In this document: in pieces, positions 9,730-12,777 of the stretch | Layout: each line of letters starts with the position of its first letter | How positions within the stretch are numbered: the first letter of the stretch is position 1 | Assembly: GCA_025362135.1 (NCBI GenBank) | Contig: JANYHZ010000020.1 | Coordinates: 38,013 to 102,012 of the forward strand | DNA from: Betaproteobacteria bacterium | GTDB taxonomy: Bacteria; Pseudomonadota; Gammaproteobacteria; Burkholderiales; Usitatibacteraceae | Direction: 5' to 3' | DNA length: 64,000 bases | The notes under the pieces: model-generated | What the model was told of the DNA's origin: nothing | Databases searched by the model: none | Seen by the model: only the letters and a program-made list of their open reading frames with translations | Made by a program: the position numbers and the translations under genes

Positions 9730-11403
9730 CTACGCTTTGCGTAACGCAAACCTCACCTCCCCCGCGACATTGGCGGCCAGCGAAAGCGTGTACCCAGCCT
9801 GCTCTGCCTGTTTGAACGCCTGATACAGCCCGATGCCCAGCCCTCCCCCGCGCGAGTTTGCGACAGGCGCGCGAAATAGACTTTCCACCGCTGCGCCGGG
9901 AATGGCGCTTCCGGTGTCGATGACGGCCAACGTCGCTGCCCCGTCGCTCGATAGCTCCACCGACACGCGGATATCCGGCTCGCGCTGCTGCTTCTTGCGC
10001 GCATTTTCGAGACAGTTCTCAAGCACCGTATCGAACAGATTGACGGGTACTGCACCCGCCATGCTGCCACGCGCCGTGAATGACACCCCGCTTCCGGCGT
10101 GGCGCGCCAATGCATCGCGCCACCAATCTTCGGCGGACAGCACGATGCCGCCGCTGCCAAGCGCAGGGTTCTGCAACTTGTCGAGGGTGGTTTGCAAGCG
10201 CTTGGTGAGTTGCGGTAACTGCCGATCCAGCATCGCCTCGTAAGGCGTGGGGGTGCGGCGCTCGGTTTGTATTCCCACGCTTTTTGAGGTCAACGCATAG
10301 AGCGATTGCAACAAATTCTTTACGTCGTGGGTGAGCTTGGCGCCAGTTTCATGCACGGCTTGCATGTACGCGTTTTGCTTGAGCACCTGTTCGCGACGCT
10401 TGCCTTCATAGAATTCACCCACCACTTGTGCCAGCAAGCGCAGATGCAGGAATAACGCCGGCGAAAGCTGGCTCTCGGTGTGAAACGTCACGTTAAGCGC
10501 GTGATAGCGGAACTGCGACGCGTGGCGGGTTTGGCTGCCGAATTCTCCGCTGCCGTCGGGGGCGCTCCATTTGCACCCCAGAATCCACGGCATCGTGGCG
10601 ACTTCTGCCATCGCGGTCTCGAGGAATCGCGCGGAGCTCATATCGGCTTCGGAGAGTGCGGCGATGCGGCGCATCCACAATTCAAACGGCATGCCGACGC
10701 TCATCAGATAGCGGGAGAAATACGTTCGTAACCCGCCATAACCCGCACGTGGTGCCCACAGCGCCGCGAGGATCAGCAAGGCGCCTGAAAACGACAACAC
10801 CGTTAACAGCACTGCGCTGAAATACGAGTTATCCGTGACACGCATCGCAGCGATGCTGCCAAGCACGAGCACGACAACGAGCTGAAAAATAAACAGGCTG
10901 TAGAAAAAATCAAAAACCTGTGCGCTTGTTTCGTCCTCGGCGCGGTAGGGCAAAACCGCCATCGTCAATAACACGATCGGCAGCGAAATTTTTACCAGCG
11001 TGGACACGCCATCCGGCAATGTTTTGATATCGAGCAGCAGCACCGGCGTCGCCCACAGCAATAAAACGGTGAACAGATAAAACACGGCCACGAGATAAAA
11101 GCGACCGCGCCGCGCCGCCTGCAGTGTGAATACCTTGCCGCCCATGATGCCGATCAGGATTGTCACCCAGGTCATCACCATCCATCCGGACAAGCTGTAA
11201 ATGACGGCACCGGTAATGGCGAAGAACAAAAGCGTCGTCAATACGTTGAGCTCGCGCTCCGTGCGGATGAAGGGTTGCCAAAGTAAAAACAAGCCGAAAT
11301 GTACAGTGAGCCAAATCCGCTGGAAGTCACCGCCCTGCGGTGAAACCAGACCCGCGTGCAGCGAGAGCAGCATCGCGAGAATTACCCAGCGCCGCCAGCG
11401 CAT
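9730..11403 (-). CDS. Membrane-bound sensor histidine kinase
   Basis: Multiple TM helices, H-box-like ETGAKLTHDVKNLLQSL, HATPase G-box GGGLGIGLYQAFKQAEQAGY. Start moved to MRWRRW (11403) because the longer ORF N-terminus is translated repeat DNA. Confidence 0.75.
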   Translation of the reverse strand: MRWRRWVILAMLLSLHAGLVSPQGGDFQRIWLTVHFGLFLLWQPFIRTERELNVLTTLLFFAITGAVIYSLSGWMVMTWVTILIGIMGGKVFTLQAARRGRFYLVAVFYLFTVLLLWATPVLLLDIKTLPDGVSTLVKISLPIVLLTMAVLPYRAEDETSAQVFDFFYSLFIFQLVVVLVLGSIAAMRVTDNSYFSAVLLTVLSFSGALLILAALWAPRAGYGGLRTYFSRYLMSVGMPFELWMRRIAALSEADMSSARFLETAMAEVATMPWILGCKWSAPDGSGEFGSQTRHASQFRYHALNVTFHTESQLSPALFLHLRLLAQVVGEFYEGKRREQVLKQNAYMQAVHETGAKLTHDVKNLLQSLYALTSKSVGIQTERRTPTPYEAMLDRQLPQLTKRLQTTLDKLQNPALGSGGIVLSAEDWWRDALARHAGSGVSFTARGSMAGAVPVNLFDTVLENCLENARKKQQREPDIRVSVELSSDGAATLAVIDTGSAIPGAAVESLFRAPVANSRGGGLGIGLYQAFKQAEQAGYTLSLAANVAGEVRFALRKA

Positions 11404-11568: not shown

Positions 11569-11649
11569 TGTCATTTCGACCGCAGGGAGAAATCTGCTGT
11601 GCTCCTTCCGCGGATGCAAAGCAGATTTCTCCGTCTGTTCAAAATGACA
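11569..11649. repeat. Intergenic palindromic element of the TGTCATTTCGACC...GAGAAATCTGC type
   Basis: Inverted repeat TGTCATTTCGACCGCAGGGAGAAATCTGCT ... AGCAGATTTCTCCGTCTGTTCAAAATGACA. Confidence 0.8.
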
Positions 11650-11834
11650 ATTTAGCACCCATGCCAACGCCGACAGGAGCGGAATCTGGGAAGCCATGCG
11701 CCACGTCTGGAAACCCCCATGAACCGTCGAGAATCTGGACAGGTGTCGGCTTCCTGAGCAGAAACGCCCGTCGTAAATCCAGTCACCCGCAAAGAAAACT
11801 ATTTATTTATCACAAAATCAATATGTTACGTTTT

Positions 11835-11850
11835 TGGCACGCCGATTGCT
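11835..11850 (+). promoter_or_regulatory. Putative sigma54 (-24/-12) promoter
   Basis: TGGCACG-CCGA-TTGCT matches the RpoN consensus TGGCACG-N4-TTGCW; 45 bp upstream of the 34-aa ORF, with the prepilin gene next. Confidence 0.8.
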
Positions 11851-11894
11851 GATATGTGCTCAGGCAAATGCCAATCTTCCACCAGGAGACCACC

Positions 11895-11999
11895 ATGAAA
11901 ACCAGATTGCAACAACTGAACATGCATGACTTCACCGTCTTGTTTCTGGCATTCGGGCTGCTGGTCGGCCTGGCAATCAAATTATCGTTTTCAATTTAG
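11895..11999 (+). CDS. Small single-TM protein (34 aa)
   Basis: ATG with SD (CCAGGAGACCACC): MKTRLQQLNMHDFTVLFLAFGLLVGLAIKLSFSI*; below the ORF-track size cut-off. Confidence 0.6.
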   Translation: MKTRLQQLNMHDFTVLFLAFGLLVGLAIKLSFSI

Positions 12000-12052
12000 T
12001 CGCAAGCGCATTCTCAATCGTTACCAAAAAATCGGAGCACAAACTGAAAAAC

Positions 12053-12727
12053 ATGAAAAGCATCAAAAGCCAGCAATCCGGCTTCACGCTTGTCGAGATC
12101 GCCATCGTACTGGTGATTATCGGCCTGCTGCTCGGTGGTATTTTGAAGGGGCAGGAATTGATTAATAGTGCGAAAACGAAGAGCTTTGCACAAGACTTCC
12201 GTACTATTCAAACATCGTTGTACGGTTATCAGGACAGGTTCAAAGCGCTGCCTGGTGACCATGCTGGTGTTGCGACTGCAATGGCTGGCCCACCCCCGGC
12301 TGATGTCGCCGGCGGTGCGGGCACGACACTGGGCAACGGTCAAATTAACGGCGCGTGGAACTCCGCCAACGCTACCGACGAGTCTTGTTTGGTTTGGCAA
12401 CATCTGCGTAAAGCCGGTTTTTCTGCAGGCCCCACCAGCGAGGGTGCAGTCGACTGTACGACTGGCGCGGCCTACGTACCGATCAACGCAGACGGTGGCC
12501 GCATTGGATTGAGCAGCATTATGAATATTACTGGCATGACGGGCTCATTCAATATTTGCTCGGCTGGTATTCTTGGAAAATTCGCGAAGCAGTTGGATAC
12601 GCAGTTGGATGACGGCACGACCAATACCGGTTCGGTACGTGTTGCACTGACATCCGCGCCGACGGTGGCGGTAGCAAATGCTGGTATCTTGGACGGCGAT
12701 TCGACTGTCGTGTGCTTATCGTTCTGA
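12053..12727 (+). CDS. Type IV prepilin-like protein (N-methylation motif)
   Basis: MKSIKSQQSGFTLVEIAIVLVIIGLLLGGILKG: canonical class III prepilin signal (G^FTLVE). Confidence 0.88.
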   Translation: MKSIKSQQSGFTLVEIAIVLVIIGLLLGGILKGQELINSAKTKSFAQDFRTIQTSLYGYQDRFKALPGDHAGVATAMAGPPPADVAGGAGTTLGNGQINGAWNSANATDESCLVWQHLRKAGFSAGPTSEGAVDCTTGAAYVPINADGGRIGLSSIMNITGMTGSFNICSAGILGKFAKQLDTQLDDGTTNTGSVRVALTSAPTVAVANAGILDGDSTVVCLSF

Positions 12728-12755: not shown

Positions 12756-12777
12756 AGCCCGCTTCGGCGGGCTTTTT
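12756..12777 (+). terminator. Rho-independent terminator after the prepilin gene
   Basis: AGCCCGC-TTCG-GCGGGCT followed by T-run. Confidence 0.9.

Follow-up and report, generated by a model that had tools for sequence, protein, structure and literature searches.

What might a 34-residue membrane peptide do on a transcript whose other product is a prepilin? The question is raised by the window, the whole stretch of DNA analysed (64,000 nucleotides), which forms part of a 3.26 Mb draft genome belonging to the little-studied family of Betaproteobacteria bacterium UKL13-2; this genome encodes rpoN and four full-length sigma-54 activators. The original prediction had placed a small membrane peptide and a prepilin-like gene behind an RpoN promoter; this part of it is supported, and the open reading frame (ORF) of the micro-protein is conserved. 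The features concerned are listed below.

9730–11403, minus strand: membrane sensor histidine kinase with a PrsK-like C-terminus, probable start MRWRRWVIL at 11403 (HATPase_c; transmembrane (TM) scan)
11725–11741, no strand assigned: activator palindrome 1, CGTCGAGAATCTGGACA (TGTC-N9-GACA with 1 mismatch), with intact copies in relatives at about −112
11744–11760, no strand assigned: activator palindrome 2, TGTCGGCTTCCTGAGCA (2 mismatches), with intact copies in relatives at about −91
11816–11828, plus strand: IHF-like site AATCAATATGTTA (0 mismatches to WATCAANNNNTTR), enriched across loci
11835–11850, plus strand: sigma-54 (RpoN) promoter TGGCACGCCGATTGCT, of perfect consensus and conserved in orthologues, with rpoN in the genome
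11884–11888, plus strand: Shine-Dalgarno sequence AGGAG of the micro-protein gene, kept before most micro-protein genes
11895–11999, plus strand: 34-residue single-helix membrane micro-protein, a mimic of the pilin N-helix (D5, G14, G18, K22 register), supported by purifying selection, alignment, profile tests and a position table
12034–12037, plus strand: prepilin Shine-Dalgarno sequence GGAG, followed by an in-frame CTG (12044–12046) that replaces the ATG of close relatives
12053–12727, plus strand: prepilin of 224 residues with a predicted type IVb-like head (N_methyl, family alignments, AF2, Foldseek)
12756–12777, no strand assigned: hairpin terminator common to the prepilin and the convergent KefC-like gene

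The promoter had been described as near-perfect; its position stands, but the match to TGGCACG-N4-TTGCW, with GG at −24 and GC at −12, is in fact perfect. The exact consensus occurs once in the window and three times in the genome (reversed control, 0), the second of the three being the pilA promoter. Sites with up to two mismatches are at chance level in the window (36 found against 38 expected), so that conservation of the promoter is what counts. Orthologues of the prepilin were identified in 45 of the 61 relatives, as well as at 80 named loci of Betaproteobacteria that span Rhodocyclaceae, Methylophilaceae, Gallionellaceae, Thiobacillus and others; a sigma-54-like site lies 5′ of most, usually 45–115 nt before the start, and at ∼170–226 nt in most of genus g1 and in g2 and g3. 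Exact palindromes in 79 loci number 29 for TGTC-N8-GACA and 17 for TGTC-N9-GACA (0.1 expected for each from shuffles), the latter mostly placed at about −91 and −112, and the IHF-like site is exact in 7 of these loci against 0.6 expected from shuffles (25 against 6.1 with up to one mismatch). When palindrome and sigma-54 site were combined into a single pattern, 28 family genomes yielded 19 matches and the reversed pattern none; all 19 represent the prepilin locus, a second assembly copy (G008), or a kinase-side contig (G021) on which the match adjoins the same kinase and the prepilin part is missing. Candidate NtrC-type enhancer sites are present upstream across the loci, the window's own copies being degenerate, and the architecture is a mark of the prepilin orthologues throughout Betaproteobacteria, most of which adjoin a divergently transcribed membrane histidine kinase. 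Gene order is kept well outside the UKL13-2 family: kinase (divergent), prepilin, KefC-like transporter, kdsD, kdsC. Between kinase and pilin promoter the window also contains a REP-like, 34-bp imperfect inverted repeat (TGTCATTTCGACCGCAGGGAGAAATCTGC..., 11569–11649), found as a single copy within the window.

The small ORF MKTRLQQLNMHDFTVLFLAFGLLVGLAIKLSFSI was found where it had been placed, preceded by its Shine-Dalgarno sequence; a longer in-frame reading is possible from GTG 11856, and the conserved Shine-Dalgarno sequence and protein start are at ATG 11895. Genome searches with the 34-residue sequence alone were too weak, returning three close matches besides the window, and leaders were therefore inspected individually. 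Conservation of the ORF, on which the original prediction had been staked, was found within the family: it occupies the space between promoter and prepilin at 15 of the 25 UKL13-2 family loci, comprising 8 of 13 in genus g1, all 6 with the locus in g2, the single locus of g3 and, on inspection of the leaders, none in g4. A profile scan of betaproteobacterial leaders outside the family found no micro-protein (best score 7.7, against at least 29.7 inside), and its presence in the leaders of other families was rejected on that score. Mapped onto a tree of the KefC-like protein, the pattern requires three changes, which could reflect a single gain with a few losses, or presence from early on with later losses. 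Between the window and its nearest relative the micro-protein gene has accumulated 10 synonymous changes and 1 non-synonymous change (binomial P 3.6e-6), and dN/dS over ten pairs runs from 0.02 to 0.66, with most close pairs at 0.02–0.22 and three pairs, of small counts, at 0.3–0.7. The sequences diverge fast and the reading frame stays open; the 34-residue ORF is, on these comparisons, a real gene.

With the small ORF in the 5′ leader and its stop 28–70 nt ahead of the prepilin start, its translation, rather than its product, might control prepilin translation or transcript stability. Such a cis-acting role is improbable, as selection acts on the amino-acid sequence, the gap exceeds the distance of stop–start coupling, and the leader is ordinary in structure (z +1.2) and has no attenuator. 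An Rfam search of the leader returned no family above threshold, and RNA leader control was rejected on these last two counts, z and Rfam.

The prepilin itself was confirmed (Pfam N_methyl, E 3e-7), with a class III signal, G/FTLVE, and an N-methylation motif. Its AF2 model (pLDDT 88) consists of a long N-terminal helix and a beta-sheet head; the PDB structures nearest to this model in Foldseek are the type IVb pilins CofA and TcpA, at modest TM-scores below 0.5. Three close relatives (G010, G005 and G001) begin the prepilin 6–9 nt 5′ of the equivalent ATG, at a position where the window has CTG; as CTG 12044 is better spaced from the GGAG at 12034–12037, it may be the true start, and the change is possibly either a rare CTG start or a real shift in initiation strength. 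The terminator that had been assigned to the prepilin as its own is present, but the same hairpin serves the convergent KefC-like gene, on whose strand only it was scored by a consensus terminator scan.

What the micro-protein gene encodes is best seen against the helix of the pilin that follows it. The co-encoded pilin helix, EIAIVLVIIGLLLGGILK, spans E5 to K22, and the residues of the micro-protein match it in identical register. Only G14 and G18 (pilin numbering) are invariant among micro-proteins, accompanied by D/E/N5 (D or E in 12 of 16, N in 4), A/T7, L/M15 and K/R22 (one Q). The pattern [DEN]x8Gx3Gx3[KRQ] fits 14 of 14 micro-proteins, against 5 of 2063 TM segments drawn from 879 other proteins of these loci; on the same control set the micro-protein profile ranks highest the cognate prepilin family, four members of which the pilin filter had missed, and it aligns every one of the 110 cognate prepilins in the F1 register. 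PilA of this genome, by contrast, is no match to the profile and scores like an average helix. Individual micro-proteins outscore 92–99.8% of control helices against the pilin helix, although, the register having been seen in the data before testing, such scores and P values are descriptive and not proof. No micro-protein carries the prepilin-peptidase site (G at −1, F at +1), and processing by that enzyme is therefore not expected. By its sequence, then, the micro-protein resembles the membrane anchor of a pilin deprived of its head.

Resemblance of this kind could be left over from a second prepilin copy that once stood in tandem upstream and now does little or nothing. Tandem prepilin copies do exist in relatives, and in 13 of 14 genomes the in-register nucleotide identity to the prepilin helix exceeds that of codon-order shuffles, an excess that would also follow from the protein similarity itself. 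Strong purifying selection, the conserved Shine-Dalgarno sequence and the undecayed state of the gene in most members of two genera and in a third lineage make a remnant highly improbable; origin by truncation is possible, present functionlessness unlikely. Least probable of all is a membrane-active small toxin or stress peptide within the pilin operon. A short hydrophobic peptide of ∼30 residues has the size of type I toxins, but here no antisense RNA family was found in Rfam, the gene is bound to one pilin promoter, and its conserved acidic residue and glycines match the pilin.

Divergence along the locus is uneven. Between the window and G010, the nearest relative for the micro-protein, DNA identity is 80–92% from the promoter through the micro-protein and 85–95% over the pilin N-helix, falling to 40–55% over most of the head, and in its head the window is nearer to G014, which belongs to another genus (71%). 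Pilin heads thus appear to have been exchanged between genera, with promoter, micro-protein and N-helix kept vertically, as would be expected if the micro-protein acts with the constant helix and not with the head. As a separate observation on pilin heads, locus L132 (G014:C11 126500–128800, minus strand) encodes a prepilin-family head behind a lipobox-like signal (...IVVAGC) in place of the pilin helix, a pilin head on a putative lipoprotein.

In the divergent kinase, which adjoins the prepilin across Betaproteobacteria, a simple scan of hydropathy resolves six clear TM segments, and there are probably more. Membership of the XrtA/PEP-CTERM PrsK family was rejected, the match to NCBIfam TIGR02916 reaching 39.9 bits over the C-terminal part only, far under the 300-bit cutoff. 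A regulator gene beside the kinase was sought in the 80 named loci and, bar a weak GlrR-like match, none was found; the regulator emerged by co-occurrence. Kinase and an NtrC-type regulator are both present in 40 of 61 genomes and both absent in 19, the two discordant genomes being incomplete drafts (Fisher P 1e-13, with shared ancestry left uncorrected). This sigma-54 regulator is encoded beside MshM/MshL-like genes, and a single 25-kb stretch of G037 brings together the regulator, the msh biogenesis genes, the kinase, prepilins and KefC. Downstream of the regulator, relatives encode a secretin, an AAA ATPase, a TPR protein, an MshEN/T2SSE ATPase and a T2SSF platform protein. The genome's own contig stops inside the secretin gene, and the remainder of the cluster is taken from G002 (secretin, MshEN/T2SSE ATPase, T2SSF platform protein and one recognised prepilin); in G007, too, one prepilin is recognised. 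From this linkage of kinase, regulator and msh genes, the prepilin of the window is the probable major subunit of an MSHA-type pilus.

Control by RpoN and PilR had been suggested by analogy with other type IV pilin genes. The RpoN part is supported by the conserved sigma-54 site; PilR was rejected as activator, as the pilA promoter of this genome has no intact TGTC-N8/9-GACA palindrome (best site, 1 mismatch). With a sigma-54 activator that co-occurs with the kinase encoded at the MSHA-type cluster, the activator of the prepilin promoter is probably not PilR.

The promoter architecture, the gene, the helix register and the kinase–activator linkage are read from sequence; translation of the micro-protein, its topology, binding to the kinase and the direction of its effect are steps that we infer from them. 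Our tentative interpretation, held at somewhat short of even confidence, is a non-assembling mimic of the pilin helix that is co-expressed with the pilin and targets membrane partners able to read this helix, among which the divergent kinase is favoured. The locus would be the sigma-54- and two-component-controlled pilin gene of an MSHA-type pilus, whose transcript in the UKL13-2 family would also encode a single-helix protein of the inner membrane, presumably lying N-in. Partners that recognise the pilin helix would bind it, foremost among them the divergently encoded multi-TM histidine kinase, at which the micro-protein would stand in for unassembled pilin; the outcome would be negative feedback on, or threshold setting for, the kinase–activator pair that would drive the same promoter. 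The specific form of this proposal, in which a stand-alone, uncleavable helix is read by the sensor kinase as a proxy for unassembled pilin and feedback becomes independent of pilus assembly, is put forward with less confidence, as one possibility. Lacking a cleavage site, a free N-terminal phenylalanine and a head, the micro-protein cannot be processed or polymerised, and with the helix kept (acidic or amide residue 5, the pilin's charge at 22) and made from the promoter that the linked kinase would control, the feedback proxy fits best. In Pseudomonas, the kinase PilS is reported to bind PilA in the membrane (PMC6528607, PMC6058289), and PilA residues 5 and 22 are stated to be required for that interaction (PMC6528607 citing Kilmury and Burrows 2016). 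By this analogy the kinase is favoured as the partner, any kinship to PilS being hypothetical; the analogy is partial, since position 22 is K/R and not the P22 of PilA. In most Betaproteobacteria, as in several members of the UKL13-2 family, the kinase works in the absence of a micro-protein, which makes the peptide at most a modifier.

Helix mimicry would be equally in keeping with a peptide that binds the pilin itself or the assembly platform. As an assembly chaperone or adaptor, the micro-protein would pair with unassembled pilin or a platform protein, holding or handing over subunits in the manner of TfpY, a pilin-locus accessory protein described as aiding assembly (PMC11841053). Co-transcription upstream of the pilin, a GxxxG helix-packing motif and the exact match to the pilin helix all suit such pairing, which fits nearly as well as the feedback proxy; against it, the pilins of genus g4 and most other betaproteobacterial orthologues do without a micro-protein, and TfpY-type proteins are larger and encoded 3′ of the pilin. 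A chaperone is the main rival, a doubtful but serious candidate; the likeness to the pilin helix at positions 5 and 22 tips the balance slightly towards feedback or sensing and away from the accessory or quality-control role that had been suggested. The cis-acting leader, dead remnant and toxin are less likely than either.

Comparable components are described in several known systems, to the extent that the available texts cover them. PilS-PilR/PilA of Pseudomonas and Nps-Npa/pilE of commensal Neisseria share with this locus a sigma-54 pilin promoter, activator sites, an IHF-like site, and a multi-TM kinase with an NtrC-family regulator, and sensing there involves positions 5 and 22 of the pilin helix. 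Here, unlike in those systems, the kinase is divergent to the pilin, the regulator lies at the MSHA-type cluster, and the operon includes an additional helix-only micro-protein, no counterpart of which was found in the accessible literature on them. Azoarcus BH72 pilAB and Geobacter PilA-N are short single-helix pilins like the micro-protein (the Geobacter pilin is also a weak profile match of the window prepilin), and Azoarcus likewise has a sigma-54 promoter with pilA ahead of pilB. These short pilins are, however, reported as prepilins needed for the pilus, whereas the micro-protein has no G−1/F1 site and precedes a full-length prepilin with its own helix. TfpY, TfpZ and FimB are small membrane proteins encoded with the major pilin that aid assembly, yet they are described as larger, with more than one TM segment, and as encoded 3′ of the pilin, beyond a terminator; none of the texts available claims that they look like the pilin helix. 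The MSHA pilus (mshL/M/N/E/G with pilins) resembles the biogenesis genes 3′ of the sigma-54 regulator in relatives, but here the gene of the probable major pilin is found at another place, next to the kinase, and the predicted head is like those of type IVb CofA and TcpA. RpoN-controlled pilin genes and short processed pilins are already on record; the literature searched, which lay mostly outside subscription journals, yielded no report of an uncleavable, helix-only micro-protein encoded in the leader of a pilin gene.

Pilin synthesis must match assembly, and very few kinases are known to sense the pilin helix within the membrane. A head-less copy of the helix that occurs naturally and does not polymerise would allow the sensing surface to be studied separately from assembly, and the micro-protein may let the cell gauge its own pilin production; if so, a helix proxy read by a kinase would be a new class of regulatory micro-protein. 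The analysis also ties together, in one putative MSHA-type pilus circuit, a prepilin that looks orphaned, a divergent kinase and a regulator encoded at a distance; the circuit is widespread in Betaproteobacteria, and the literature searched, as far as accessible, yielded no description of it.

The third perfect sigma-54 site of this genome, at G000:C3 33456–33625 (L001 1501–1670), directly follows a GlrR-like regulator gene and has a TGTC-N10-GACA-like palindrome upstream. Downstream of the site comes an RNA of 146 nt and very high stability (z −4.8) that ends in a strong hairpin and T-run; an Rfam search of this RNA gave no family above threshold, and it resembles a GlrR/RpoN-driven small RNA, perhaps a betaproteobacterial counterpart of GlmY/GlmZ.
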